A stretch of 64,000 nt of DNA, from IMG/VR virus record IMGVR_UViG_3300028556_000001, positions 1 through 64,000 of that record, one strand, 5' to 3'. Position 1 is the stretch's first letter. The number at the start of each line of letters is the position of its first letter. Origin of the DNA: a virus. The translations under genes were made by a program, and so were the position numbers. Under the pieces are notes generated by a model. That model worked only from the letters and a program-made list of their open reading frames with translations, was not told where the DNA came from and did no database searches. Shown here in pieces: positions 3,734 to 55,098 of the stretch.

Positions 3734-4336
3734 ATGAACGAATCATTAACAGCACCATTGGTTGGGGAATTTGTTGAGTTCCCAAAAATCGCCCGCCTTT
3801 CTCGTGAAGTAATAATTAGTGAGAAAATTGACGGCACCAACGGGCAAATCTACATCGGCGAAGATGGCGAGTTCTTTGTCGGCAGCCGCACTCGTTGGAT
3901 TACGCCATCTGAAGACAATTACGGATTTGCGAAGTGGTGCTTTGAAAACCGCGATGAATTGCTCAAACTTGGCCCCGGTCGTCATTTTGGCGAATGGTGG
4001 GGCGGCGGCATTCAACGGGGATACGGACTTCCCAAAGGAGAAAAGCGATTCAGTCTTTTTAATTCCTCTCGCTGGCGTAAGCAGGGAGATGGAAAGCCGA
4101 TGCTGGACAAGCAGCAGTTTTGCCCAGACTGTTGCTATGTTGTTCCTGAACTCTACCGGGGGATATTTTCTTCTGAGGAATGCGACTACGCCGTTGCCGC
4201 ATTGCGGATTTCTGGAAGCGTCGCCGCCCCCGGATTTATGAAGCCAGAGGGAATTATTTGTTACCATACGGCTGCTGGTATCAGTTTTAAGAAAACCATC
4301 GAAAAAGACGAATCTCCAAAATCAATATCACCATGA
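3734..4336 (+). CDS. RNA ligase-like nucleotidyltransferase domain protein
   Basis: 200 residues. Lys31 lies in KIDGTN, the motif I (KxDGxx) of covalent nucleotidyltransferases, where the lysine takes AMP. FGEWWGGG near residue 80 and KRFSLFN near residue 103 match motifs III and IIIa of the RNA_ligase family. The C-terminal motifs IV and V are less clear, and the protein is short against full RNA ligases (about 330 residues), so it may be a minimal catalytic domain. It starts one base after the propeller stop and overlaps the methyltransferase by ATGA. RNA repair or ligation is the family role; its place among glycan genes is odd. Confidence 0.75.
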   Translation: MNESLTAPLVGEFVEFPKIARLSREVIISEKIDGTNGQIYIGEDGEFFVGSRTRWITPSEDNYGFAKWCFENRDELLKLGPGRHFGEWWGGGIQRGYGLPKGEKRFSLFNSSRWRKQGDGKPMLDKQQFCPDCCYVVPELYRGIFSSEECDYAVAALRISGSVAAPGFMKPEGIICYHTAAGISFKKTIEKDESPKSISP

Positions 4337-5193
4337 CACTCGAACAAGCGATTTCCGCCTACATTCCGCAAATGCCCGGCTGGTCAACGCCGGAGAAGTG
4401 CCAAATTTTGGCCGATTGCATCCTCTCAACCAAATGTAAGTTGAGCGTGGAAATCGGGGTCTTCGCTGGACGTGGACTCATTGCAATGGGCATGGCTCAC
4501 CGGGAACTGCACCACCGTGGTGTCGAAGGCACCTACGCGACGGGCGTTGACCCTCTCCTAGCCGCCCCATGCCTTGAGGGTGATGGCCATTCCAATTTGG
4601 ACGTGGAGTTCTGGAACGACCAAGACAAGCTCGACCAGATGCACGCCTACTGCCTGAATGCCATCGAAGGCCCGAACTCCCACCACATCGCGGAATGGTG
4701 CAGGTTTCTCAGGATGCGCTCGGACGAGGCGGTTAAGCTCTTCGCCGACAGCTCCATCGGGGTCTTGCATCAGGACTCCAATCACTCCGAGAAGATTTCC
4801 TGCGACGAGGTGGCGCGGTGGGCACCGAAGATGCTGCTTGGTTCCTTCTGGGCCATTGATGATTCTGACGACCAACGCCAAGTCAAAGCGATGCAGATGC
4901 TACTCGATTACGGTTTCGTAGAGGTCAAGGACGCTGGCAAGTGGAAATTGTATCGTCTAGACAGCCGGAAGGTGGTGAACCCGGAGCCGCCAGTAGAGCC
5001 ACAGGTGGCTGAGATGCAGGTTCTCACAACAGACAGCACGCTTACACTGCCAGCCGAACCCACGCCCGACTCGGTTCCTTCCGTGCCTGACCCTACGCCA
5101 GAACCCAGCAATCCCGTCGAGCCGCCAGCCGAACCCGTCGCTCCCGCTCAGGAACAGACCTTGCAGCCGGAGGCCGTAAGTGAAGGGACGTAA
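4333..5193 (+). CDS. Class I SAM-dependent methyltransferase with Pro/Glu-rich tail
   Basis: 286 residues. SVEIGVFAGRG near residue 40 is the glycine-rich SAM-binding motif I, GVDPL follows as motif II, and IGVLHQDSNHSEK near residue 140 resembles the acidic and His segment of Methyltransf_24-type enzymes. The last 70 or so residues are a disordered repeat rich in Pro, Glu and Val. It sits between the RNA-ligase-like gene and the glycosyltransferases and overlaps the next gene (GTG start at 5180). Sugar or small-molecule O-methylation is likely, substrate unknown. Confidence 0.75.
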   Translation: MTLEQAISAYIPQMPGWSTPEKCQILADCILSTKCKLSVEIGVFAGRGLIAMGMAHRELHHRGVEGTYATGVDPLLAAPCLEGDGHSNLDVEFWNDQDKLDQMHAYCLNAIEGPNSHHIAEWCRFLRMRSDEAVKLFADSSIGVLHQDSNHSEKISCDEVARWAPKMLLGSFWAIDDSDDQRQVKAMQMLLDYGFVEVKDAGKWKLYRLDSRKVVNPEPPVEPQVAEMQVLTTDSTLTLPAEPTPDSVPSVPDPTPEPSNPVEPPAEPVAPAQEQTLQPEAVSEGT

Positions 5194-5395
5194 TCCAGTT
5201 TATCGCGGTGGCCCCAAGGACGGAGAGCAACTTCGTCCCTTTGAGGACAAGCATCCTACTGTCTCTATTCTCCATGAGGACGGCCCTAATGCCGTCGCTC
5301 AGTATGACCTCGCGCCGGGTGGTAGTGTCTGGAGGTTCAAGGGACGGCTCACCAAGGGTTCGCCGAAGAAAATGCAAAGAAAGAAAAATTCATAA
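5180..5395 (+). CDS. Hypothetical basic 71-residue protein
   Basis: GTG start at 5180 lies inside the 3' end of the methyltransferase gene and the reading frame ends at TAA 5393-5395. The pattern YRGGPKDGEQL...VAQYDLA...VWRFKGRL looks like a small beta-rich protein, with a Lys/Arg-rich tail. About 86 bases follow before the fucosyltransferase start. Function unknown; the conserved-looking PxDGE stretch supports a real gene. Confidence 0.6.
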   Translation: MKGRNPVYRGGPKDGEQLRPFEDKHPTVSILHEDGPNAVAQYDLAPGGSVWRFKGRLTKGSPKKMQRKKNS

Positions 5396-9833: not shown

Positions 9834-9882
9834 GGTAGTGGTACAGTTTGCCCTCCGAATGCGTCAGAAACCCTCCATTGCC

Positions 9883-10740
9883 CTACTTTTTCGGGCCGTC
9901 AATCTTCTTGATTTCACGGTGCGACGACTTTAGACGCTTTTGCACGCTCTTTATATCTTCGGCGGGAGCCAAATGTTCTGGCGGCGTACCACCGATTTTG
10001 ACAATGGCTTGACGAACTTCCCGGCCAACATTTTCGGCGGCGTTTTCTAGATTGGCTTGTCCGCGTATTTTTTCTGCTTTGATTTTGTCCTCGGTCTGCG
10101 TGACACGGAAAAGATTGGCCGCAAGCTCTGTCTTGCCCATGAATTCCAGCGGGGATCGACCGTCAGGGATTCCCTTTCTCTGGCGGATTTTCCACAAATC
10201 CATATTATAAAGCCCGCGATAACCTGCATTTTGAAAAAATGGATAATTAGTTACGCCAGATACAGCCGCTATACCCGATAGTGCCCGCTCATGCTCTGAA
10301 ACCTCGCCGCGAATTGCTACGCGTTCAACCCCGTCCGCCTGTTCCAAGGACATCTGGCAAGCCTCAGCCCACCTAGCAAAATAGACTTGCGCCTGTGCAA
10401 CTTGAGGTTTTTTCGGGTCTCCATTCATTGCCGCCAAGTAGCAGGCAAAGCGTGAAAGTTTGTAGTCCTGAACGGTCTTCCCTGCCACGTCCCTTGAAGT
10501 CTGGATAATATTATCCATGACGGGTATATTTAGGCTCATAAGTGCAGCCATAGCTTTTTCGATGGATTTGCGAAAGCCTTGCAAACTTTCGTATCCTAGA
10601 AGACTTGCCAAGTCAGATGCCCACCAAAAAAGAAACCCGTTCGTATTAGAAAGGGCTTCAAATCCGGCCTTGTGTGGAGCAGTTGGCTCCAATTGAAAGG
10701 GACTATCGCCGGAGGCTTCGCTGGGGGTGTCTTCGCTCAC
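9883..10740 (-). CDS. dinD: DinD family DNA-damage-inducible protein
   Basis: 285 residues, GTG start at 10740. The N-terminal BRO-like part has DLASLLGYESLQGF and LSRFACYLAAMNGDPKKPQVAQAQVYFA. The C-terminal half has FFQNAGYRGLYNM, IRQRKG, MGKTELAANLFRVTQTEDK and VGREVRQAIVKIGGTPPE, which track DinD of E. coli closely over full length. DinD inhibits RecA filaments in E. coli; here the gene is transposon cargo placed directly after a transposase remnant. Transcription probably comes from the remnant's promoter at 10918-10946. Confidence 0.93.
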   Translation of the reverse strand: MSEDTPSEASGDSPFQLEPTAPHKAGFEALSNTNGFLFWWASDLASLLGYESLQGFRKSIEKAMAALMSLNIPVMDNIIQTSRDVAGKTVQDYKLSRFACYLAAMNGDPKKPQVAQAQVYFARWAEACQMSLEQADGVERVAIRGEVSEHERALSGIAAVSGVTNYPFFQNAGYRGLYNMDLWKIRQRKGIPDGRSPLEFMGKTELAANLFRVTQTEDKIKAEKIRGQANLENAAENVGREVRQAIVKIGGTPPEHLAPAEDIKSVQKRLKSSHREIKKIDGPKK

Positions 10741-10781
10741 GCATTGAGACTAACACCGGATATAGTTGCGGCAACATCTTT

Positions 10782-10911
10782 TTATGCCGCCTTTTCCTGT
10801 GCGTCTAGTAGGGCGATAATGTCAACTACCTCCCAGATTTTCGTTGCGACCCCTGCCTTCGCAGAGGCAGGCTATGACGCGGGCGCGTTGGTCTTGGCTT
10901 AATTGGTTCAT
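10782..10911 (-). pseudogene. IS1-type transposase, internally deleted (N- and C-terminal ends only)
   Basis: The minus-strand ATG at 10911 opens MNQLSQDQRARVIACLCEG, matching the start of IS1-family transposases in this window (FDKQVSIVSALAEG). It then meets, in another frame, AGVATKIWEVVDIIALLD and TAA at 10784, which matches the family C-terminus (AMAAG followed by a short acidic tail). About 230 central codons including the DDE residues are missing. The junction lies in a small hairpin (CCTGCCT..AGGCAGG). A good promoter remains upstream, and dinD follows 42 bases later. Confidence 0.8.
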
Positions 10912-10917
10912 GGTGTC

Positions 10918-10946
10918 AAATTAGCTTATTATGCTTGCTATGTCAA
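10918..10946 (-). promoter_or_regulatory. Sigma70-type promoter upstream of transposase remnant and dinD
   Basis: On the minus strand TTGACA (10946-10941), a 17-base spacer and TAATTT (10923-10918). The -10 lies only 6 bases from the remnant's ATG, so the transcript may be leaderless for that frame and serve chiefly dinD. Confidence 0.6.
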
Positions 10947-11006
10947 GGGGGTATTTTAAGAAAAATGCCGCCCGGTTTTTACGCCGGACGGCACGCCTAT
11001 GTAGGA

Positions 11007-11231
11007 CTAGACTTTCCGCCAGATGGGGATGCCGCTACCAGGAGGCGCATATTGAATGCGACCTGTACGCGGGTTTCTCACCCGTTTGACGATGGCGACC
11101 AGTTTATAGCCGGGTCTGGGCTTGGGTTGGATAACCATTGTGGATATCCGGGCAAAACCCATTGACAACCGTGGCCGCTGATGCGATAATTCTAGTGATT
11201 GCTGAACTATCGCGGCGGCTTGTCCGGTCAT
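11007..11231 (-). CDS. Small basic protein in element D
   Basis: Up to 74 residues from ATG 11231; an internal start (MVIQPKPRPGYKL) would give 43 residues. The C-terminal part GYKLVAIVKRVRNPRTGRIQYAPP looks like a compact basic beta domain (KLV..RVRxPRTGR), a style common in small proteins next to mobile elements. Start uncertain; function unknown. Confidence 0.45.
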   Translation of the reverse strand: MTGQAAAIVQQSLELSHQRPRLSMGFARISTMVIQPKPRPGYKLVAIVKRVRNPRTGRIQYAPPGSGIPIWRKV

Positions 11232-11308
11232 ACGGATGGGTTCGCCCGGAAAGTCTTAGACCCCGGCGTGTTTCAAGCACGGCACGGGGTTTTTCGTAAA
11301 TTTGTGCT

Positions 11309-11770
11309 TTAGCCGGGTACCACTTCCTCCTCCTCGTCCTCAGCGACAGCCGGAATTGGTGGCGGCGGGTTTGCGACCGCCTCGGCTGGTTTGGTTGAAG
11401 TGCGTTTGTATCGAGTAGCACCGGGATACCATTCTGCAAGCCCCCATGTATCGGTATTGGGGACTTTAATGAAAGCGGGATTCTTACCTAGCGCAATCGC
11501 CACGTTACGAGCGGCTATCACACTATCCTTGTTGTCGAATTGGTAGCCGCCCGCCTTCATAGAGTCATAAAGTGTTTCCAGCGAAATTGCGCTCAATCCC
11601 CGCGACTTCCCGGCTTGCAGTATTTCTCGTACAACCGTTGCAAGTGGTCGGCCAAAATATTGGTCTGGTCGCGTCACCCCGCCTGTCGATTGAGATAATT
11701 CAATGTCAGCGTAAATCGGTGGCGCACCTGCCGCCGAGCAAAGCTCATTGACCAATTTCTTTTTGGACAC
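11309..11770 (-). CDS. Winged-helix (HARE-HTH-like) protein in element D
   Basis: 153 residues. Residues about 45-120 (TVVREILQAG...SAISLETLYDSMKAGGYQF...AARNVAIALGKNPAFIKV...WGLAEWYPG) follow the pattern of HARE-type winged helices, in which a helix pair is followed by a 'GYxF' wing and a short beta hairpin. The C-terminus is a Pro/Glu tail (EDEEEEVVPG). DNA binding is inferred from the fold guess. It overlaps the end of the KGG-type frame just upstream. Confidence 0.55.
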   Translation of the reverse strand: MSKKKLVNELCSAAGAPPIYADIELSQSTGGVTRPDQYFGRPLATVVREILQAGKSRGLSAISLETLYDSMKAGGYQFDNKDSVIAARNVAIALGKNPAFIKVPNTDTWGLAEWYPGATRYKRTSTKPAEAVANPPPPIPAVAEDEEEEVVPG

Positions 11771-11898
11771 AAGCTATTGCTGGCCCTAACCTGTCCGCCT
11801 TTGACCGCGCTGGCCTTTGGCTCTGGCGGCGGCGGTACTACACCTGTGGCACGTTGAACCACGTCAAAGGCAATCTGGGCAAAGTCTCGTTTCGGCAT
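11674..11898 (-). pseudogene. Degenerate KGG/histone-like small gene
   Basis: ATG at 11898 opens MPKRDFAQIAFDVVQRATG, a typical start of short phage and transposon proteins that end in KGGxARAxxLxPKxR. Here VKGGQVRASNSLCPKRNW is recognisable, but the frame then runs as a shadow inside the winged-helix gene. Probably a truncated or frameshifted gene whose 3' part was replaced. Confidence 0.4.
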
Positions 11899-11947
11899 AG
11901 CCCCAACATATCATGCTTGCTGCCCAATTCCAGTCCAAAGCCGGGTT

Positions 11948-12121
11948 TTATAATTCAAACTGTACCACTACCAAAATTCGCCATCGCTCGCGAGCTTCCG
12001 GTGGCATCGCCATCAGGCATTTAATCGCAGCGTCGTATAGCGGCTTCATCTTAGCGCGAAACTCTAGGCATCCGGGCGGCAAGTCTTCGTCGCGGATGAT
12101 GAATGATGGAGGAGGTTTCAT
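11948..12121 (-). pseudogene. Hypothetical gene truncated by element D
   Basis: ATG at 12121 opens MKPPPSFIIRDEDLPPG; the native sequence runs to ERWRI at the element edge (11973). The last residues VVVQFEL and TAA come from the transposon's inverted repeat. The lost C-terminus can be read on the far side at 9788-9833. Function unknown. Confidence 0.6.
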
Positions 12122-36725: not shown

Positions 36726-37103
36726 CTACGGTTTGTAATTCTTCGCCATTGTAGCGATGTATTTCCGGCCCGCGTCCTGTTCCTTCCCTGTCAGCTTCCA
36801 TTTCTTCATGTCCACGATATTTTTAATGGCCGTGGAAACCAAGGCAGCCAGACGGCGGGGTTCGATGGCGTCAAGTTCCCATGAAGAATTTCCGAATCGC
36901 CGGATATAGGAAGCGGCGCGGCTATCCGTTATTTTGGCCGGATTTTCAGGAGGTTTCATTTCCTCCACTTGGCTCATGTTCAAGGCCAGCCGATTCACCT
37001 GCAATCCAGAATCTTCGTTTGGCAATCGTCCAAGGGGAATGTTCAGGAATGTTTCCAATCGGTCGGCCACATCCCGTGTCATGTCAATGCCACTAGGGTC
37101 GTG
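36726..37103 (-). pseudogene. TOPRIM (TopoVI-A-like) gene, 3' part, split by transposon
   Basis: Frame continues the 5' part at 43265-43830. After the target site it reads SGIDMTRDVADRLETFLN and runs to TAG at 36726-36728. It supplies the region after the TOPRIM DxD motif (GDHDP-SGIDM) plus a C-terminal helical domain (IKNIVDMKKWKLT...). Separated from its 5' part by a 6.2-kb nested insertion, so neither piece is likely functional. Confidence 0.85.
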
Positions 37104-37155
37104 GGTACTGTCCGGTTATGACCACTGACTTTTTACAATCGGCTCTTTCCGGCCT

Positions 37156-37449
37156 TTACTTCTTGGCCTCGGACATGACATAGGCCCGGACTGCGGTGAG
37201 CGGGGAGATGACTGGGGGCAACTCCAGCACGGCAATGGCGTTGCTACCCTTGTCATGGTCATAGGCCCATGCGTAGCAGCGGGAGGCTTGGGGATGGCCT
37301 ACCAGAGCGAACACTTCCACGTCTCCCTCCCAGACCGGGCGACCTTGGAACGTCTCCACCACAGGAACCGTCTCCAGATGCTTGGAATCGGCCCCGTGGA
37401 CGCTCTTAATGGCTTTCTGGAGGTGCGCTAGGTAGTGCTCGCGGTTCAT
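37156..37449 (-). CDS. Transposase-coupled accessory protein (orf97) of element A
   Basis: 97 residues; ATG at 37449 overlaps the transposase TGA (ATGA), so it is translationally coupled. Sequence HYLAHLQKAIKSVHGADSKHLETVPVVETFQGRPVWEGDVEVF is clearly homologous to the protein after the transposase of element B (41920-42222): YLAHLQKAIKK, ETVKVVEAF, W-GDVEVF, ASRCYAWA. No known domain. Conservation in the same position in both elements suggests a role in transposition or its control. Confidence 0.85.
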   Translation of the reverse strand: MNREHYLAHLQKAIKSVHGADSKHLETVPVVETFQGRPVWEGDVEVFALVGHPQASRCYAWAYDHDKGSNAIAVLELPPVISPLTAVRAYVMSEAKK

Positions 37450-38279
37450 TGCTGGTAGGAGAAGAAAACGAGGTCTTTGACGGTAAGGGGTGAACGCTCG
37501 ACGCCAGCAGCCATCGCCGGAGTGCAACGGATTGTGCCGTGGAATTTCACGAGGTTGTAATAGGCGAAGTGCAGGGCGACGGCAGCCTTAAAATTCTCCA
37601 GCTTCTTGCTAAACCCGTTCGTCAAGCGGGCAAAACGGCGGCAGTGCATCCGCACCGTATGATTCTGCTTCTCGACAAAGGACGTGGAAATCTTGGTGGG
37701 GTCAGGACGGCCCACGAGCATGGCCTTGTCCACCTTAACCACGGCAGGAGGGCTATACCTACGCTGTTCCGCCGATTCCGGCGATGCGAACTGCTTTACA
37801 ATCTGCCCGTAGTCAATCCCCACGCCCCAAGTTGTCTCCACCGCCGGGGCGTAGTGAATCAGGCCATCCGTCGAAAGCTGAATGCGCTTCGTCAGCCGCA
37901 TGGAGAGGTCACTAAGGAAAAGGTTCGTGCTTTTGTAGTCCCGTTTGCCGACATGGAAGGCCGGGACGAGCTTCGTTTCAGCATCGAGGGCGACGAAGGT
38001 GTAGGCGTCCCCGTAACCCTGTTTAAAGTCCTCCGGCAAGCAGTTTGCCTGCTTCTTGTTGATGAAGGCCCAAAGTTCGTCGGCCTCCAGCCGTTCACAG
38101 GACAGGTTACGCATGCGGTCGTCTAGGTAGGCCGCGCAGCCTTCGCCGACGCGCTTGCCGACGTTCATCACGGTTTCCTTGTCCACGTCGAGCATACGGC
38201 TGATGCCCCGGATGCTGGAGCCTTCCGCGAGGGCGGACACAATGGAGACTTGCTTGTCGAATGAGAGGTGGTTGCTCAT
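37446..38279 (-). CDS. IS1-family transposase, element A
   Basis: 277 residues. Helix-turn-helix at the N-terminus (IVSALAEGSSIRGISRMLDVDKETVMNVGKRVG). Catalytic DDE: D67 in ADELW, D in LSTDGLIHY near residue 145, and E in SFVEKQNHTVRMH near residue 205. C-terminus is TPAMAAGVERSP. Unlike E. coli IS1 it is a single unbroken frame (no InsA/InsB frameshift). Expression is from a promoter overlapping that of the divergent RHH gene. Confidence 0.92.
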   Translation of the reverse strand: MSNHLSFDKQVSIVSALAEGSSIRGISRMLDVDKETVMNVGKRVGEGCAAYLDDRMRNLSCERLEADELWAFINKKQANCLPEDFKQGYGDAYTFVALDAETKLVPAFHVGKRDYKSTNLFLSDLSMRLTKRIQLSTDGLIHYAPAVETTWGVGIDYGQIVKQFASPESAEQRRYSPPAVVKVDKAMLVGRPDPTKISTSFVEKQNHTVRMHCRRFARLTNGFSKKLENFKAAVALHFAYYNLVKFHGTIRCTPAMAAGVERSPLTVKDLVFFSYQQ

Positions 38280-38295
38280 GGGTCGTTTTTGATTG

Positions 38296-38332
38296 TTGAC
38301 TTAAATGTAATACATCAATACCATTTCGTCAA
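38296..38332. promoter_or_regulatory. Face-to-face overlapping promoters with operator-like palindrome, element A
   Basis: Plus strand: TTGACT (38296-38301), 17 bases, TACCAT (38319-38324) toward the RHH gene. Minus strand: TTGACG (38332-38327), 17 bases, TACATT (38309-38304) toward the transposase. Between them lies the near-palindrome ATGTAATACAT (38305-38315), a likely RHH operator. Confidence 0.7.
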
Positions 38333-38345
38333 CAATTATTTTTGT

Positions 38346-38543
38346 ATGACAGAAAAGAAAAAAAGAGGCAGACCAAAGGTATCCCCGGACAAATTCAAAC
38401 AGCCGGGGGTATCCTTTCGCCTAAGCCCAGAGGAGTCTGCCGTACTTAGAGCAGCCTCTACCCTTAGTTCCCAATCGGTCTCCGAATGGTCGAGAAAAGT
38501 GTTGCTTTTAGAAGCGGAAAGATTATTGTCAGACCGAAAATGA
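38346..38543 (+). CDS. Ribbon-helix-helix regulator, element A
   Basis: 65 residues. After a GRPKVSP lead, VSFRLSPEESAVLRAASTLSSQSVSEWSRKVLLLEAERL follows the RHH pattern: a short beta strand (VSFRL) and two helices ending SEWxR. Similar to the shorter RHH protein of element B (40868-41038). Probably represses the divergent transposase and itself. Start at ATG 38346 agrees with the promoter. Confidence 0.8.
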   Translation: MTEKKKRGRPKVSPDKFKQPGVSFRLSPEESAVLRAASTLSSQSVSEWSRKVLLLEAERLLSDRK

Positions 38544-38544
38544 A

Positions 38545-38618
38545 TGGAGCCGGACGGATTCGAGCCGACATCTCCCAACTGTAAAGGACGGGCGGTTTGC
38601 CGATTAACCTACGGCCCC
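38545..38618 (-). tRNA. tRNA-like gene, anticodon most simply UUA (uncertain)
   Basis: 74 bases fold as a tRNA: acceptor GGGGCCG/CGGCTCC (7 bp, one G-U) with discriminator A, D stem GGTT/AACC, T arm GTCGG-CTCGAAT-CCGTC (one T-T mismatch). The anticodon stem CCGTC/GTTGG has one mismatch around loop CTTTACA, whose positions 34-36 are TTA (ochre-type). Base 37 is C and 54 is C, both unusual, and an off-register reading would give TAC (Val). It starts 1 base after the RHH stop. Possibly a decayed or suppressor tRNA. Confidence 0.55.
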
Positions 38619-38646
38619 AGCATTTTCAGACTAAGAAGTAGTCCCT

Positions 38647-38697
38647 CAACCCGTACGGCCCTCCTATCAGGGTAAAAGCCGTACGGGTTGTGCCTTT
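38647..38697 (+). terminator. Hairpin terminator after RHH gene
   Basis: Perfect 13-bp inverted repeat CAACCCGTACGGC (38647-38659) and GCCGTACGGGTTG (38678-38690), then TGCCTTTTAT. Likely ends the plus-strand RHH transcript. Confidence 0.6.
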
Positions 38698-38776
38698 TAT
38701 ATATGCCGCGCTAAGTTTCGCTGGGACAACGACTTGCGCTTTATTTTATCACCATAAATTTAGAAATAGAAGGTGG

Positions 38777-39172
38777 TTATTCCACCAAAGACCACTTGCC
38801 GTCTTTGAACTGGAAAATATTAGAATTACTAGACAGGGCTACACCGAAACCATCGCGAGAAGTTACCTTGGGATTTTTGGATTGTACGTAATCCCATAGC
38901 TCGTCTCGGGTCATCGGCCTTCCGGTTGATTTTAGGGCTTCTATCGCCAATTCCTTGCTGCTCTTCATTCGCTCCAAAGGCTCACGAATGAGTTTAGAAA
39001 TTTTTGCCAAGTTCATATGTTCGTCCGATGGGAAAACGTCCCGTGGGTCAAGCATGTCGGCTGCTTGCCGCAAACGCTTTACTTCGGCTTCCATGCGGTC
39101 GGCTTCCATACGCATACCATAAGCGTATCGCTTAGAGGCAGGTGGAGGAGGTGGTGGTGGATTGGGTTTCAC
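38777..39172 (-). CDS. Winged-helix-type cargo protein of element A
   Basis: 131 residues. N-terminal Pro-rich MKPNPPPPPPPASKR, then a coiled-coil stretch (MRMEADRMEAEVKRLRQAADML) and a C-terminal winged-helix-like domain: LAIEALKSTGRPMTRDELWDYVQSKNPKVTSRDGFGVALSSNSNIFQFKDGKWSLVE. It resembles the fold suggested for the gene in element D at 11309-11770. DNA binding is inferred. Confidence 0.65.
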   Translation of the reverse strand: MKPNPPPPPPPASKRYAYGMRMEADRMEAEVKRLRQAADMLDPRDVFPSDEHMNLAKISKLIREPLERMKSSKELAIEALKSTGRPMTRDELWDYVQSKNPKVTSRDGFGVALSSNSNIFQFKDGKWSLVE

Positions 39173-39348
39173 GAGCCAACCATAAGGATAGCTCTATCCT
39201 ATGTCAATGGCCTATTTTACCCTCTAAAAGTGCTCAAATGCGCTCGTATGACTCTAGCCGCGCTTCTAGAGGGGTTTGGCCTTGTCGTGTTCTGAGGGGC
39301 CATTGGTAGTGTCCTAATTTGGAATGACCCCCAAGCTCAATACCCCCA

Positions 39349-39576
39349 CTAATTGCTCCACAATCTTACCACGCTACTGCAATACTTACTCATACCGGCC
39401 TGATTTGTCGCCGTCATGGGTTTGTTGTGGAAAACAACGGCGTGTCGTCCTTCGCACTCAAAATCAAACCGATATAGGCCCTCACATCCGTCTGGCGTAT
39501 TACAGGGCCCTTTCAATGGGCCAATGCCGAAAGAATCTTCGCCGAATTTTATGTTTGGCAGAATAGGATGAGCCAT
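39349..39576 (-). CDS. Hypothetical 75-residue protein in element B
   Basis: Read leftward toward the element end: MAHPILPNIKFGEDSFGIGPLKG ... VVFHNKPMTATNQAGM. Contains a C-N-C pair (PCNTPDGCEG). Lies downstream of the trpC-like gene on the same strand. May be a small cargo gene or a chance frame. Confidence 0.4.
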   Translation of the reverse strand: MAHPILPNIKFGEDSFGIGPLKGPCNTPDGCEGLYRFDFECEGRHAVVFHNKPMTATNQAGMSKYCSSVVRLWSN

Positions 39577-39666
39577 TCCAACACTAGGTCATGTTTGTTG
39601 GATAAACTCAAGCCCGCTTACTTACTTCATAGCCCTAGTAGCTATCACATGTTTTACCGCACAGAT

Positions 39667-40527
39667 TTAGGCGGAAACTGGCTCCCGCTTAAAGCGGGTA
39701 ACGCCTGTATGTTGCAGGCTCACCTTCTCAAATGCTTCCAGCTCGGCGCGAATACCGATGGGTGACTTGAGTAGTGATGTGCCGATAAGCGCAGCGTCAA
39801 ACCCCATTTCCATAACTTTGGCAAAGTTTTGCGGATTGATGCCGCTCTCGGCCACCTTAACACAATCCCTGGGAAGCTTACTGATTAGATTAAACGCACC
39901 AAGCACTGTGGTAAAATCTCCGCCCGTTAAACGACTCAGGGCAAAGCGAATGTCTCCATCGAAATTGCGACTGTTAATGCCGCAAATCTCCACGTCTTTA
40001 GGTAGCGTCAGGATTTGGTCCTCGCTGCGAACTTCGCAAAGAACATGCAGACCTAGGCTCCTCGCAAAAGAGTGTAGTTTCTGAAAATCTTCTGGGCTAA
40101 GAATATCAGGATGCGCCATTAGTAAGATTGCGTCTGCTCCGAATGCACGAGCCTCTAAAACCTGATACTCGTCTATAATGAAATCCTTTCTGAGAATTGG
40201 TTTGGAAATCACCTTTCTCACGCTTTTGATTGATTCAACTATCATCCCAAAATGCAGCTTATTTGTGAGCACCGAAACGGCGTGAACTATCTTGGACTCT
40301 TGATAGGCGTAAGGAGATTCCTGAACCAATCGTGGATTCATCATTCCCGCGCTGGGAGATTTGACTTTAATCTCAGCAATTATCCCACCTCCGCGAACAG
40401 CCTCTTTAAAGTCAAGGACTGGGGGAGCGTTCTTTAGCCAACGCTCTAACACCGTGGAAGGTCTAATCCTTTTAGCATCAGCGACTTGCTGGCGCACACC
40501 GATAAGAATTTCGTGAATGATGTCCAT
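39667..40527 (-). CDS. trpC: Indole-3-glycerol-phosphate synthase-like protein (TrpC family), transposon cargo
   Basis: 286 residues, close to the usual 260-270. Barrel motifs in order: IIAEIKVKSPSAG (usual AEIKxxSPS), VLTNKLHFGM (usual VLTDxxFFxG), ILRKDFIIDEYQVLEARAFGADAILLM (well kept), LCEVRSEDQ (usual LVEVH), ICGINSRNF (usual GINNRNL), VAESGI, ALIGTSLL. Catalytic Lys and Glu residues are mostly present, with changes at positions 2, 5 and 7. TrpC closes the indole ring in tryptophan synthesis. Finding it alone as IS1-transposon cargo is unusual. Confidence 0.85.
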   Translation of the reverse strand: MDIIHEILIGVRQQVADAKRIRPSTVLERWLKNAPPVLDFKEAVRGGGIIAEIKVKSPSAGMMNPRLVQESPYAYQESKIVHAVSVLTNKLHFGMIVESIKSVRKVISKPILRKDFIIDEYQVLEARAFGADAILLMAHPDILSPEDFQKLHSFARSLGLHVLCEVRSEDQILTLPKDVEICGINSRNFDGDIRFALSRLTGGDFTTVLGAFNLISKLPRDCVKVAESGINPQNFAKVMEMGFDAALIGTSLLKSPIGIRAELEAFEKVSLQHTGVTRFKREPVSA

Positions 40528-40540
40528 ATTGCGAAGGATT

Positions 40541-40813
40541 CTAGTAAGCAGCTAGGCAATAGACAGCAGCAACCTTCTCAGGGAACAGGGCGTCACCTGT
40601 TGGCATGAACCGGGCCATGACGACACGAGGGGTTTGATGAGTTGAGAGGTTGTTTGCCAATAAACCATCGAACTCCTCCTGAGTCAAGCCCTCGTAGAAC
40701 AGGGTGATTTCAGACAATGGAATACCATCTTTGGCTGCATTTTGGCGCACCAAATCGAGGTCAACCCCATGCTGATTTTTCATGTCCTTTTGGAGCCCAA
40801 GAAAAGCTTTCAT
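40541..40813 (-). CDS. Hypothetical 90-residue cargo protein of element B
   Basis: Starts MKAFLGLQKDMKNQHGVDLDLVRQNAAKDGIPLSEI, ends 13 bases before the trpC-like start, so probably in the same transcript. Helical, with no recognised domain. Could be a small enzyme partner or unrelated. Confidence 0.6.
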   Translation of the reverse strand: MKAFLGLQKDMKNQHGVDLDLVRQNAAKDGIPLSEITLFYEGLTQEEFDGLLANNLSTHQTPRVVMARFMPTGDALFPEKVAAVYCLAAY

Positions 40814-40867
40814 CCGCTTGGGTCAAGCACTTTTTGTGCCTCGATGCGCCTTGTTGCTCCCGTCTCC

Positions 40868-41038
40868 TTATTGAGATAAAATCGAGAATCTGACCCATTC
40901 CGAGAGGTCTTTACCTTCCGCCCGGGCCTTGGCCTCGACCTGCTCCCTCTCCGCCTCGGTCAGGCGAATCTGAAGGTTTACAGACCTAGCTGCCCCCTTG
41001 GGGAGCTTTGGCCTGCCTAGGGTTTTCTTTATTGTCAT
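40868..41038 (-). CDS. Ribbon-helix-helix regulator, element B
   Basis: 56 residues from ATG 41038: GRPKLPKGAARSVNLQIRLTEAEREQVEAKARAEGKDLSEWVRFSIL, the CopG/RHH pattern with a beta strand NLQIRLT and two helices ending SEWVR. Counterpart of the regulator in element A (GRPK lead; SEW-R). Divergent from the transposase. Confidence 0.82.
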   Translation of the reverse strand: MTIKKTLGRPKLPKGAARSVNLQIRLTEAEREQVEAKARAEGKDLSEWVRFSILSQ

Positions 41039-41050
41039 GCAAAAAAGATG

Positions 41051-41086
41051 TTGACGTAAGCATATTACTGCATTACGGTAAGTCAA
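41051..41086. promoter_or_regulatory. Face-to-face overlapping promoters, element B
   Basis: Plus: TTGACG (41051-41056), 17 bases, TACGGT (41074-41079) to the transposase. Minus: TTGACT (41086-41081), 17 bases, ATGCTT (41063-41058) to the RHH gene. Same geometry as in element A. CGTAA...TTACG arms could be the operator. Confidence 0.65.
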
Positions 41087-41101
41087 TAATCAAATTCAGC
41101 C

Positions 41102-41923
41102 ATGCCAAACGTCCTCCCATTCGATAAACAGGTCAACATCGTCGCCATGCTCGCGGAAGGCGCGTCCATTCGTGGGGTCGAGCGCATTACCGGGGTTCAT
41201 CGGGATACCATCATGCGCCTTGGGGCGAAGGTGGGGAATGCCTGCGCTGACTTCATGGACACCCGCCTGCGTGACCTTACCTGCCAGCGGGTCGAGATAG
41301 ACGAGCTTTGGGGCTTCATCGCCAAGAAGAACGCCGGATGCCTGCCGGAAGAGCTTAGGAACGGCCTTGGGGACGTTTACACCTACGTCGCCTTAGATGC
41401 GGACACAAAACTGATTCCGACCTTCCATGTCGGCAAGCGCGACGAGATGAACACCGTGGCCTTTGTGGAAGACCTGCGGAGCCGGATGCGGACGCGGATT
41501 GAACTCTCTTCTGACGGATGGCGTGCTTACGCTGGCGCGGTGGACAAGGTTTTCGGATGCGAAGTGGACTACGGACAAAACGTAAAAGTTTTCGCTTCGC
41601 CGGAGAAGACCGAAGAGCGCAGATACAGCCCGCCAAAAATCAGCAAAATTGAGCGTTCGTCCCTTATCGGGGAGCCGGAGAATATCTCGACATCCTTGGT
41701 GGAAAAGCAGAATCATACCGTGAGAATGCACTGCCGCCGTCTGGCTCGTCTTACCAACGCTTTCAGCAAAAAACTCGACAACTTTAAGTCTGCCGTGGCC
41801 CTCCACTTTGCGTATTACAACTTCGTCAAGTTTCACCGCACCATCCGCATGACTCCGGCGATGGCCGCTGGCGTGGAGCAATCACCCCTAGAAGTCGCTA
41901 ACCTCGTTGAACTAGCCCGATGA
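41102..41923 (+). CDS. IS1-family transposase, element B
   Basis: 273 residues, homologous to the element A transposase over full length. HTH IVAMLAEGASIRGVERITGVHRDTIMRLG; catalytic D67 in IDELW, D in LSSDGWRAY near residue 140, E in SLVEKQNHTVRMH near residue 200; C-terminus TPAMAAGVEQSPLE. Unbroken frame. Stop overlaps the next ATG (41920-41923). Confidence 0.93.
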   Translation: MPNVLPFDKQVNIVAMLAEGASIRGVERITGVHRDTIMRLGAKVGNACADFMDTRLRDLTCQRVEIDELWGFIAKKNAGCLPEELRNGLGDVYTYVALDADTKLIPTFHVGKRDEMNTVAFVEDLRSRMRTRIELSSDGWRAYAGAVDKVFGCEVDYGQNVKVFASPEKTEERRYSPPKISKIERSSLIGEPENISTSLVEKQNHTVRMHCRRLARLTNAFSKKLDNFKSAVALHFAYYNFVKFHRTIRMTPAMAAGVEQSPLEVANLVELAR

Positions 41924-42222
41924 CTCACCCCGAGTATCTAGCGCATCTCCAGAAGGCCATTAAAAAGACCTTTGGGCTGGAGTCTGAATACGTCGAGACG
42001 GTCAAGGTGGTTGAGGCATTCAGGGGCAAAGTCATTTGGGACGGTGACGTAGAGGTTTTCACGGTCAAACACCCCGAGGCGTCCCGTTGCTACGCATGGG
42101 CGCATGACATAGAGACAGGCTCCCACTCCCTTGTCGTGCTGGGGCGTCCGCCTATCAAGTCCGCCCTAGATGCTGTCAGGGCTGCGCTTGTGACCGAAGG
42201 CAGACGCCAATCCAGTAACTAG
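41920..42222 (+). CDS. Transposase-coupled accessory protein (orf100) of element B
   Basis: 100 residues, coupled by ATGA. Homologue of the 97-residue protein of element A (YLAHLQKAIKK, ETVKVVEAF, WDGDVEVF, EASRCYAWA). No known domain. A 110-base tail to the element end follows. Confidence 0.88.
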   Translation: MTHPEYLAHLQKAIKKTFGLESEYVETVKVVEAFRGKVIWDGDVEVFTVKHPEASRCYAWAHDIETGSHSLVVLGRPPIKSALDAVRAALVTEGRRQSSN

Positions 42223-42340
42223 GCATCCCGCACTTGTTATAAATCGTTTAACTTCTGTTGCCGGGCAATCCATCTCCCACAGTAACCGTCAAGCTTCTTT
42301 CCAATAGTCACCGCTCAAATTAGGACACTACCGGGGCCAT

Positions 42341-43162
42341 TCATTCCACAATCCTTGAGGTTATTTCCACGTCTCCATGACTCGTTTTCCATTTCACGAT
42401 TAAATCAATCTTCACCGGGCGGCAGTTTTGCGACCCGACAATGTAGTGAAAGACATAGAACGCGCCTCCTACTGCTTTGAAATTGTGAGTAGGATTACCG
42501 GGAGACAGAAAGTTTTTTGTGGGTGTAAGTAAGTCGCCAGTGTGGGATACGACCAAGGCGTCTAGATATTCCACACAACCCTCATTAACATTGCGTTCAA
42601 GTGGATCTGGACTGCCTGCTTTTTCCGTAGCGCAGTCGAAGGTCAAATCGAGGTTTTCCCCTATGTAGCTTTTTGCACCTTCAAATCCCAGCATCCTACC
42701 AAAGCATTTTTGTATGCCACCAATTCCCTTAGTCCCCACTCTTATTCTATAGTAATCGGTGTCTAATTTTCTTTCACAAATAAAAGTTCTGCTGCTTGTC
42801 CAATTACCAAACTGCAACGGAGTGTTTGGTCTGTAGCAACCCGTGTCTTTTTGGTCGAAGAATAAATCTAGCTGCGGTTTTGACTCCAGTATGTTTATCT
42901 TTTCTAGAAGTTGATAGTGGAATCTATAGGCCGACTCCAAGAGTGCCCCAAAGAATAAGATGCAACAAATGATAGCACCCCAAAATGACGCCCATCCGGG
43001 AGCGGTGAGCAGCGTATAAAGGCTCCCTAAAAACAATAGCCCAAAGGCCCATCGTGCCTTCATGGTCTCCCTCCGTTCGACCGCATCCGAAAAGATGGAT
43101 GAAAAATAGGAGGTTCGACTTGGGGGCTCTTTCTCTGCTGTCGGAGATTTCTTGCGAGCCAT
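42341..43162 (-). CDS. Membrane-anchored cargo protein of element A
   Basis: 273 residues from ATG 43162 (a longer frame starts at 43228 in the element end and is unlikely). A double membrane segment lies at about 33-75 (RWAFGLLFLGSLYTLLTAPGWASFWGAIICCILFFGALL), then a soluble domain with strands (SSRTFICERKLDTDYYRIRVGTKG; LDLTFDCATE). Its TGA is at 42341-42343, directly at the insertion point of element B. Function unknown. Confidence 0.65.
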   Translation of the reverse strand: MARKKSPTAEKEPPSRTSYFSSIFSDAVERRETMKARWAFGLLFLGSLYTLLTAPGWASFWGAIICCILFFGALLESAYRFHYQLLEKINILESKPQLDLFFDQKDTGCYRPNTPLQFGNWTSSRTFICERKLDTDYYRIRVGTKGIGGIQKCFGRMLGFEGAKSYIGENLDLTFDCATEKAGSPDPLERNVNEGCVEYLDALVVSHTGDLLTPTKNFLSPGNPTHNFKAVGGAFYVFHYIVGSQNCRPVKIDLIVKWKTSHGDVEITSRIVE

Positions 43163-43264
43163 AGACCCAGAGCATGATAATGGATGCCGAGGTGGTAAAG
43201 CCTCAAGCGGAACGCCTGTAATCCCCATTTGTAAAAATGGGGTGCCTCATAACCGGACACTACC

Positions 43265-43830
43265 GGGTCGTGGTCGCCCAAATATAAAACGTAAAGCTCC
43301 TTTTCCTGTTCTGCGGCCTTGAGGAAACGCTTACTAGCCTCATACATTGCGCTGGATGAGGAATAACCTTTGTTCGCCGTGAACGGCACATCCCATTCCG
43401 AGCAGACTGGAATCAGGACGCCTTCCAATGCCTGCTTCTCCACCATAACCTCCATGTAACATGGCTGATTCGCCCAGCGGTCAACGCGAAACTGAGTTGC
43501 GGCGGTGTGTAAAATGTCGGCAGGCGAAGACCAATGGGGGTTCTCGACCGTCTCACGTCCCCGGTCTTTGATAACATCCCAGTCAATGCGCCCAGCCATG
43601 CGAGCATCTGAAACCAGATTGCCAACATTCTTATAGCTGCGTTCCGTATTCTCCACGATGTTGCGGCTGACAAGCTGGTAGTAAAGCTGGCGAAGGCTCA
43701 AGTCGTATCCCGCCTCGACGTATTCAGTCAAGATTCCATTGATAGTTCCAATCATACCAACCGCTTCAGAACCAAAGTTCTTTTCGATGAATTGTTCTCT
43801 CACATGAACACATTTACCCACTTCCTGCAA
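43265..43830 (-). pseudogene. TOPRIM (TopoVI-A-like) gene, 5' part, split by transposon
   Basis: Winged-helix part: LSLRQLYYQLVSRNIVENTERSYKNVGNLVSDARMAGRIDWDVIKDRGRE, matching the 5Y-CAP domain of Spo11/TopoVI-A. TOPRIM part: VEKQALEGVLIPVCSEWD...NKGYSSSSAMYEA...YVLYLGDHDP, with the acidic Glu and DxD motif. The frame is cut within GDHDP by element A; the remainder is at 36726-37103. Joining the pieces over the 8-bp duplication gives about 310 residues with GDHDPSGIDM intact. Confidence 0.88.
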
Positions 43831-53679: not shown

Positions 53680-53818
53680 AGCTGGGTGAGGTTAGGGAAT
53701 GAAATCGGCACTGCCTCACTTTGACCGCTGCCCCCTCTGGCACGATGCCAGACGGCTCCCGGTCGGGGAGCAAGGGGACGCTGGTTAAGATGATTGTCGC
53801 CTGAGCTTAGAGAGTGGG

Positions 53819-54346
53819 TTACTTGTCCTCCGGTTTGGATTGTTGCGTCGGGGGTGGTGGCGTGTCTATGGGCTTCCATTTCGAAAAAGCCAACCCCAGA
53901 AGTCGAACGGGACATAAACCGACGACTTTTAGCAGTGCTAGCATCGCCCTCGGTTCGGTATATGGAGGCATTAGGAATGCTAGACGCAAAAAAATTATCA
54001 TACCCGCGCTCGCAGAGATGCAAAATGCCACTCCTGTGGCGATGCCGAAGTGGAAGAATATACAAACGCAAGCGATTACGAAAACTAGCTGAAAGAAAAA
54101 GTAATCACATGCCCCCTCCCGTGAGTAATGCGGACGAAGCCCCAAGAGGATAAAAAACGGGATGCCAAACGCGAAAATAAAGAGGGCGACGGTAGGTGGA
54201 ATGTCCAGCTTTTCGAGTGGGAGCATTTGAACGACAACAACAATCGAAGTCCCGGCCATAATGCGGCTATTTTGAGACATTGCGCGGAGGGCATTTAGAG
54301 CCTTGAGGGCCTCAAGTGCTTCCGCCTTCTCCGCATCTTCCATCAC
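53819..54346 (-). CDS. Membrane protein, cargo of element C
   Basis: 175 residues. Four probable spans between 25 and 130 (IMAGTSIVVVVQML, VALFIFAFGIPFFILLGL, FFQLVFVIACVCIFFHFG, VAFCISASAGMIIFLRLAF). ATG at 54346 overlaps the stop of the transposase remnant by ATGA, just as orf97 and orf100 do in A and B. Different fold from those, so the gene after the transposase appears interchangeable. Confidence 0.7.
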   Translation of the reverse strand: MMEDAEKAEALEALKALNALRAMSQNSRIMAGTSIVVVVQMLPLEKLDIPPTVALFIFAFGIPFFILLGLRPHYSREGACDYFFFQLVFVIACVCIFFHFGIATGVAFCISASAGMIIFLRLAFLMPPYTEPRAMLALLKVVGLCPVRLLGLAFSKWKPIDTPPPPTQQSKPEDK

Positions 54347-54447
54347 GCCGCTTTAGCTGCGCCCTTGGCGTCTAGCAACCCGATAACGTCACTCAATTCC
54401 CAAACTGTCTTAGAGATTCCCGCAGCCATTGCCGGGGTGCAACGAAG
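54343..54447 (-). pseudogene. IS1-type transposase C-terminal remnant
   Basis: RCTPAMAAGISKTVWELSDVIGLLDAKGAAKAA to TGA at 54345-54343. Matches the C-terminus of elements A/B (RCTPAMAAGVE..; TPAMAAGVE..) and that of the element D remnant (WEVVDIIALLD). Upstream, the catalytic domain is replaced by unrelated G-rich DNA. Confidence 0.8.
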
Positions 54448-54548
54448 GGAGGCAGGAAAGGCGGGAAGGCTCGGGCGGCTGCGCTGACGCCGGAGAGACG
54501 CAGGGAGATAGCGAGGATGGGCGGGAAGGCTGGAGGGAGAGGGCGGAA

Positions 54549-54947
54549 GTGAAACCAGATTATCCGCAACCCGACTTTCGGGAAGACATCCGAGCTTGGT
54601 ATGCCGGGAGCAAGGGAGCGGATTTATCATCCGAAAAGCAGCGGACGGCGTTGCGGGTATTGCTGGCCGTTAAGTATCCTGACGAGGACACCACAAACCT
54701 ACGGGCTGATTGCATCCTGCACGTGCGGCAATACGTGCGGAGTCAGCCGCCCGTTGCGCCGCTCGGGCTTCTGCAAAAAGCAGACGGCCCATTGATTTTC
54801 CCCATGACCGAAAGTGTAGCGGTTGCATTGCATGACCTCGTTGAAAGAGGCATGTCTGTGCCCACTTTGCTAGGGATGGTGAAATTCGTGGCAGAAATCG
54901 AAGGGCGAACAGGCAGGAATCCCGCACCAGAACATCCCCAAGGGTAA
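54549..54947 (+). CDS. Hypothetical 132-residue protein in element C
   Basis: From GTG 54549: VKPDYPQPDFREDIRAWYAGSKGADLSSEKQRTALRVLLAVKYPDEDTTNLRADCILHVRQYV. Helical. Lies opposite in direction to the membrane gene. Cargo or host-derived; function unknown. Confidence 0.6.
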   Translation: MKPDYPQPDFREDIRAWYAGSKGADLSSEKQRTALRVLLAVKYPDEDTTNLRADCILHVRQYVRSQPPVAPLGLLQKADGPLIFPMTESVAVALHDLVERGMSVPTLLGMVKFVAEIEGRTGRNPAPEHPQG

Positions 54948-55098
54948 TCGGCTTATCGTCTTCGTCCGCCATCCCCACACCTTAAACTGAGGCAGTGCCG
55001 AATGTCAACCCTCAGACGATGTTTCCAGCATGAGCGACCGTAATACTCCGCATAAGTCAGGCTAATAGGATGGAAGGGGATGAAGATGGGGCTTGCGG

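Follow-up and report, generated by a model that had tools for sequence, protein, structure and literature searches.

Insertion sequences (IS) are usually regarded as parasites that encode a transposase only, with the IS1595 family known for members that often carry passenger genes. More generally, IS whose passenger genes have no role in transposition have been described as transporter IS (tIS) in several IS families (PMC3129680, PMC7986276), and in the IS6 family tIS cargo occurs in a single member (PMC7986276). Among Tn7-like transposons, 96% of members carry cargo, including many toxin-antitoxin (TA) and defence systems, with exchange across hosts (PMC8649781). Here we compare with these systems two nested elements, A and B, and two smaller ones, C and D, located in a window of 64 kb (the whole stretch of DNA analysed) out of the 73,226-bp IMG/VR virus record IMGVR_UViG_3300028556_000001. 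We estimate at roughly 87% the probability that all four belong to a widespread group of DDE transposons related to IS1, A and B as intact members and C and D as decayed ones, and that members of this group as a rule carry cargo, which is exchanged between elements and favours their persistence through addiction or protection of the carrier.

Two nested elements in a phage genome

Element A (37104..43264, transposase on the minus strand) is 6161 bp long including the nested B, and 3124 bp once B and one copy of its duplication are removed. Its terminal inverted repeats (TIR) are GGTACTGTCCGGTTATGA and GGTAGTGTCCGGTTATGA, and the 8-bp target site duplication (TSD) GGGTCGTG is present on both flanks (37096..37103 and 43265..43272, 8/8 identical). 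Element B (39305..42332, plus strand, 3028 bp) has GGTAGTGTCCTAATTTG at both ends and the 9-bp duplication GGGGCCATT on both flanks (39296..39304 and 42333..42341, 9/9 identical). The initial annotation had proposed that both elements are intact with duplications of these lengths, and the flanks agree with it.

A and B share three genes. The transposases, which are 62% identical, comprise 277 aa in A (37446..38279, minus; IS1-like, DDE residues present) and 273 aa in B (41102..41923, plus). Each is coupled by an ATGA overlap to a gene of the orf97 family, namely orf97 in A (37156..37449, minus; hidden Markov model (HMM) of the family, E 1e-37) and orf100 in B (41920..42222, plus; HMM E 1.5e-39), and each is divergent from a ribbon-helix-helix (RHH) gene (38346..38543, plus, start inferred, in A; 40868..41041, minus, PF21983 E 1.5e-7, in B). 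The cargo of A includes a 131-aa protein with a coiled coil and a HARE-HTH winged helix (38777..39172, minus; PF05066 E 2e-4, under cut-off) and a 295-aa predicted membrane protein that matched no family (42341..43228, minus). B carries a 90-aa open reading frame (ORF; 40541..40813, minus) and a protein similar to indole-3-glycerol-phosphate synthase (39667..40527, minus; PF00218 E 5e-45). In the latter the known catalytic-residue motifs appear by eye to be retained. This TrpC-like cargo is also present in another phage-borne element (L095, 6616-7623, E 2e-36).

The insertion site of A lies in a topoisomerase-like phage gene, whose N-terminal part is found at 43273..43830 (minus; phrog_6247 'DNA topoisomerase', E 2e-66) and C-terminal part at 36726..37103 (minus). 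Joining the flanks of A with a single copy of the duplication gave a continuous ORF of 334 codons, which could be aligned over its full length with a protein of phage Phobos (44% identity, 298 columns) and also with a protein of phage JG054; in these alignments A sits at the motif LGDHDP-SGIDMTRD. Since the rejoined flanks match phage homologues over the full length, A inserted into a phage gene, and B inserted into A after A had entered it. Across the whole group, spanning ORFs after removal of the element were equally common with shifted joins. This bulk test being uninformative, gene interruption is claimed for the target of A only.

A widespread group of IS1-related transposons

Scans of viral contigs with a single protein of A or B gave no matches and an alignment was required as query. 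With alignments, we recovered at least 579 relatives in genomes and 207 in virus contigs, and the best 80 of each were carried forward. By tblastn, proteins about 40% identical and annotated as 'IS1 family transposases' were found on alphaproteobacterial plasmids, with similar ends, 8-bp duplications and different cargo. The hosts of the relatives, many of them represented by metagenome-assembled genomes (MAGs), include Verrucomicrobia, Acidobacteria, several proteobacterial classes, Nitrospira, Planctomycetes, Actinomycetes, Chloroflexia, Bacteroidetes and others. In mostly randomly drawn genomes, the group was present in 15 of 190 from Alphaproteobacteria and 2 of 195 from the Verrucomicrobia phylum.

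The ends of the elements were picked by inverted repeat and start motif alone. We thus delimited 117 distinct elements, with both flanks readable in 114. Exact 8-bp duplications were present in 90 of the latter, whereas 0.8 would be expected from swapping right flanks between elements; B and one further element (L064) have exact 9-bp duplications. The inverted ends are about 17-24 bp long with the overall consensus GGTAGTGkcyCARTTTGAAATTTC, and most elements of the subgroup containing A and B (subgroup I) end in GGTAGTGTCCTAATTTG. The 90 elements with an exact 8-bp duplication range from 1323 to 6161 bp (median 3140), a single one being below 1.6 kb, and in 89 of them the DNA outside the transposase gene amounts to at least about 1 kb. 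The initial annotation had staked its proposal on the absence of elements with these ends carrying a transposase only. None was found among the 90, and even in the smallest (L163, 1323 bp) the transposase is accompanied by a tRNA-like gene as well as a small ORF. All of 12 additional elements with exact duplications, mostly from randomly drawn genomes, also carry cargo. About 100 relatives, each delimited independently, lend strong support to the IS1-like family with swappable cargo suggested by the initial annotation.

Some distant IS1 relatives with different ends are bare (903 and 1186 bp). On a distant IS1 branch, an Acaryochloris plasmid harbours an element of 3955 bp (L169, 2716-6670) with ends GGTAGTTAGGTGAGATTATCTCAGC and an 8-bp TSD, and cargo may be present on this branch too. 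The jumbo phage Gurke of Brevundimonas (L003) encodes at 4001-5230 an unannotated, divergent IS1-like transposase (32% identical), located within several kb of sequence that lack any annotated gene; recognisable ends were not found around this gene.

In A, B and their relatives, the transposase is one continuous ORF instead of the two-frame insA/insB arrangement with a frameshift; IS1 members with a single ORF are known. The catalytic residues D67, D138 and E201 (B numbering) are present in 92 of 92 elements by motif-based assignment. The IS1 model NF033558 is the best profile for both transposases, each under its curated cut-off (A, E 1e-13; B, E 3e-15, 56.6 bits, cut-off 100), and a match to PF03400 reached 22.0 bits against a cut-off of 24.1. 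The NF033558 match begins at model position 43-44, leaving unmatched the N-terminal part of the model, with the InsA zinc finger. The group thus resembles the IS1 family in its best-matching profile, its inverted ends starting with GG and its duplications of 8-9 bp, but differs from it by profile scores under the cut-offs and by elements of 1.3-6.2 kb with cargo and accessory genes, instead of the short, transposase-only IS typical of that family.

The 8-bp TSDs and GG ends would also fit membership in the IS1595 family, in which passenger genes are familiar, and the B transposase does match the IS1595 model NF033547 (26.9 bits, E 4e-6, cut-off 75). We consider this affiliation improbable, as the IS1 model beats the IS1595 model for B by 56.6 to 26.9 bits (both under cut-offs) and no NF033547 match was listed for A.

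The architecture of the elements is subgroup-specific. Elements of subgroup II usually begin at the left end with a basic protein of about 80 aa, followed by cargo, transposase and right end, some elements having extra cargo beyond the transposase. The accessory genes of subgroup I are orf97 and, in some elements, also the RHH gene. Cargo is mainly inserted in a slot that separates the transposase from the left-end accessory gene, the accessory gene being often at the opposite end of the element from the transposase, and there is an optional second slot behind the transposase. The swappable slot that had been placed right behind the transposase thus survives as this second slot but is not the main one. 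Nor is orf97/orf100 an occupant of it, as had been thought: counting its positions, as the initial annotation had recommended, we found that 8 of the 19 known copies of orf97 lie directly 3' of the transposase and the others elsewhere, and it is an accessory of the subgroup of A and B, not cargo. Its predicted fold is alpha-beta4-alpha (AlphaFold model of the family, confident, with pLDDT 89.5 and pTM 0.81), and the family matched neither a PDB sequence nor, clearly, any known fold. For the basic protein, convincing Pfam or PDB matches were not found.

Cargo and its exchange

The changes of each character were counted on a quick transposase tree of 93 element rows, one of which (L057) has no readable flanks, the element filling its contig. 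The absolute counts are rough because the tree is quick, but it nevertheless groups end types and accessory types well: the end type required 2 changes compared with a mean of 27 in shuffled data, and the accessory type 3 compared with 16. By contrast, RmrA-type cargo (12 elements) required 11 changes compared with 11.5, PD-Lambda-2_B-like cargo (10 elements) 9 compared with 9.6, and most smaller cargo families were also near their shuffled counts. Among transposase pairs at 70-89% identity, cargo was common to 3 of 27. The ends, orf97 and transposases of L033 and L096 are 80-96% identical at the DNA level while the intervening DNA is unrelated, and B and L009 could be aligned only across the RHH gene, transposase and orf97. 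These sequence comparisons indicate that the transposase, ends and accessory gene share one tree, from which the movement of cargo is independent.

Among the recurrent cargo are XRE-M78 proteins with matches to RmrA (12 elements, on 6 viral and 6 cellular contigs), PD-Lambda-2_B-like proteins (10), RmrT (4), HEC-04-like AAA ATPases (3), DNA methyltransferases (3), Panacea antitoxins (2) and Schlafen AlbA. RmrA and RmrT are PADLOC names, which we take to denote RosmerTA. Altogether, at least 32 of 92 elements carry TA or defence-like cargo families. An element on a virus contig (L091, 3821-6270) combines Vsr with a methyltransferase and a protein similar to restriction enzymes, and so apparently holds a complete type II restriction-modification system. 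PD-Lambda-2_B-like proteins are paired with an unnamed protein of 160-178 aa (cluster c5) in L004, L049, L053, L057, L078, L100, L118 and L127, and this pair may constitute a new TA or defence module of two genes. The genome G016, which contains L031, has 12 matches to transposases of the group, intact and partial, and is suited to studying the exchange of cargo.

These elements have intact ends enclosing passenger genes, as tIS do, and could be seen as a few opportunistic tIS with accidental passengers, without swapping or selection on the type of cargo. The existence of such tIS in several IS families and the many singletons among the cargo ORFs (302 of 496) would agree with this proposal, to which we nevertheless give little credence: cargo is present in practically all members, the same TA and defence modules occur across many transposase lineages, and the accessory genes are conserved. 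Whereas cargo is occasional in tIS, in this group it is the rule, recurrent and exchanged. In near-universal cargo, TA and defence content and exchange, the group resembles Tn7-like transposons, but differs from them by a single small transposase with no multi-gene transposition machinery seen, an 8-bp TSD and a size of only about 3 kb; no TnsABC-type proteins were found in Pfam scans of the cargo, in which no dedicated models were searched. Finally, that ordinary bare IS1 insertion sequences lie by chance near unrelated genes and that the 3-kb elements reflect misread boundaries, as the annotators' label 'IS1 family transposase' and the existence of bare IS1 relatives might suggest, is refuted by the duplication statistics (90 of 114 with ends taken from the inverted repeat alone, 0.8 expected, median 3.1 kb), and the accessory gene, often at the far end, tracks the transposase phylogeny.

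Several points weigh against our interpretation of the group as exchangeable cargo transposons maintained through addiction or protection. The many weak branches of the transposase tree inflate the number of cargo changes, and the calling of cargo ORFs followed a simple greedy rule. The cargo of two thirds of the elements has no recognised function, so that the case for addiction or defence does not extend to most of them. IMG/VR contigs may contain non-viral DNA, and many hosts are MAGs. Recent mobility is suggested by duplications and nesting rather than by observed transposition, and the mechanism of cargo exchange is likewise deduced rather than directly seen.

In the mechanism that we envisage, the transposase would bind both ends and move everything enclosed, with a staggered 8-bp cut at the target, and any DNA inserted between the accessory gene and the transposase would thereby be made mobile. 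The RHH protein would probably repress the divergent transposase promoter. Cargo would be exchanged when elements residing together recombine through their conserved arms, which nested insertions such as that of B in A would juxtapose. The recurrence of TA and defence-like cargo suggests that the elements persist through addiction or protection of their carriers, phages included.

A possible tRNA-like RNA module and decayed elements

About 20 elements including A encode a tRNA-like RNA immediately upstream of the transposase and on the same strand. In A (38546-38779, minus), the putative RNA comprises a tRNA-like domain (38546..38618, minus; loop CUUUACA with the ochre anticodon UUA, G3-U70 and A73; ARAGORN 'tRNA-Stop', Rfam tRNA 45.3 bits) and two hairpins, the strong HP2 (38648..38690, minus) and HP1 (38708..38739, minus), with a spacer z of -4.7. 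The identification of a hairpin of A as RybB was rejected (Rfam E 0.036, under threshold, the match being HP2 itself). Further tRNA-like genes were found in L012, L014, L020, L022, L025, L026, L028, L030, L066, L074, L090, L091, L099, L103, L111, L149 and L163.

ARAGORN made 22 strict calls in the 500-nt regions preceding 188 distinct transposase loci, all on the transposase strand, versus 0 in reversed sequence. The T-arm motif occurred 18 times in these regions (52.7 kb) versus 8 times in the remaining strand space covered by the search, and a structure scan demanding acceptor and T stems gave 18 matches, all upstream of the transposase on the same strand. The tRNA covariance model scored above its gathering threshold of 29 bits in A (45.3), L020, L066, L103, L156 and L163, and below it in L025, L028, L091, L149 and the transposase-adjacent copy of L099. 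The dominant anticodon is UUA, with CUA in L030 and L149 (read from the loops), and subgroup I has mostly stop anticodons; versions resembling Leu, Gln and Ser tRNAs are also present (isotype by eye). Several copies combine A73 with a single G-U pair at position 3-70, which corresponds, from the sequence alone, to the alanine identity signal.

A same-strand cargo gene lies directly upstream in 16 of 20 elements with the RNA and 32 of 92 without it (Fisher p 3e-4). The genes upstream of the RNA encode coiled-coil winged-helix proteins or a DUF5343-like family, which in this set is restricted to RNA-bearing elements (5/5, p 1e-4, the lineages not being independent). The gap between the upstream gene and the tRNA-like domain is about 116-158 nt in 10 elements, and most such gaps fold as two strong hairpins (median z -3.8 versus -1.8 in other gaps), unlike that of L020, in which this fold was not found. 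In hairpin 1, 4 of 8 pairs are changed on both sides between L014 and L026, with 0 broken. At a phage locus (L233, 6735-6910), the DUF5343-like gene is accompanied by two hairpins together with a cloverleaf of type II (loop CUUAUAA, 3' GCCA, z -4.1), and no IS1-like transposase was found nearby. As the module thus occurs without a transposase, it is probably cargo rather than transposition machinery.

We searched for a readthrough target and found no conserved extension behind the stops of the transposase or the upstream gene, stop usage being mixed; the anticodon-loop motif has no pairing partner elsewhere within the element. The top fold match of the DUF5343-like protein is the BREX protein BrxA, at E 0.25 a lead only. 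From these sequence patterns, we see even chances that a minority of elements, A among them, carry an undescribed protein-RNA module, made of a winged-helix or DUF5343-like gene and an RNA of about 200 nt with two hairpins and a 3' tRNA-like domain, which would act in addiction or against phages via stop-codon misreading or tRNA mimicry.

The initial annotation had counted four members in this phage, each with a conserved arm of RHH, transposase and coupled gene. The arm is present in A and B, but C and D, which share the ends (16/20 and 17/20 matches, respectively, both without TSD), retain only transposase scraps and a basic-protein relic; they are relics of subgroup II, distinct from the subgroup I of A and B, and the count of four holds as a pair of intact elements and a pair of relics. 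Element D (9834..11972, minus) contains scraps of the transposase N- and C-terminus joined by a deletion (10806..10911, minus; HMM E 0.002 and 0.2), a basic-protein relic (11758..11892, minus; HMM E 5e-6), and as cargo a 153-aa winged-helix-like protein (11309..11770, minus; matches L221, E 1e-23, and L103, E 6e-11) and a DinD/BRO-N protein (9883..10740, minus; NF008573 E 4e-63, with a match in element L209, E 8e-43). Between the winged-helix gene and the transposase scrap of D, two strong hairpins (10911-11311, minus) lie in a stretch that is perhaps a decayed copy of the tRNA-like RNA, no tRNA-like domain being recognised beside them. Element C (53707..54999, minus) contains a C-terminal relic of the transposase (54346..54440, minus; HMM E 6e-6), a basic-protein relic with a KGG-like repeat (54439..54528, plus; HMM E 2e-7), and as cargo a 175-aa membrane protein (53819..54346, minus).

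In the open-access literature, we found no description of an IS1-related clade with obligatory, swapped cargo, nor of transposon-borne tRNA-like RNAs with stop anticodons. The group is thus likely novel, in agreement with the initial annotation, although ISfinder entries (for the clade), subscription papers and preprints, which were outside this scope, could still hold it. Its members are mostly annotated merely as 'IS1 family transposase' with hypothetical neighbours, while the group behaves as a compact system by which TA and defence-like genes are shuttled between bacteria, plasmids and phages. Genes that recur between GGTAGTG ends in unrelated elements probably form a functional unit, and delimiting elements by their ends can therefore reveal new two- or three-gene defence modules, the tRNA-like RNA module being one candidate.

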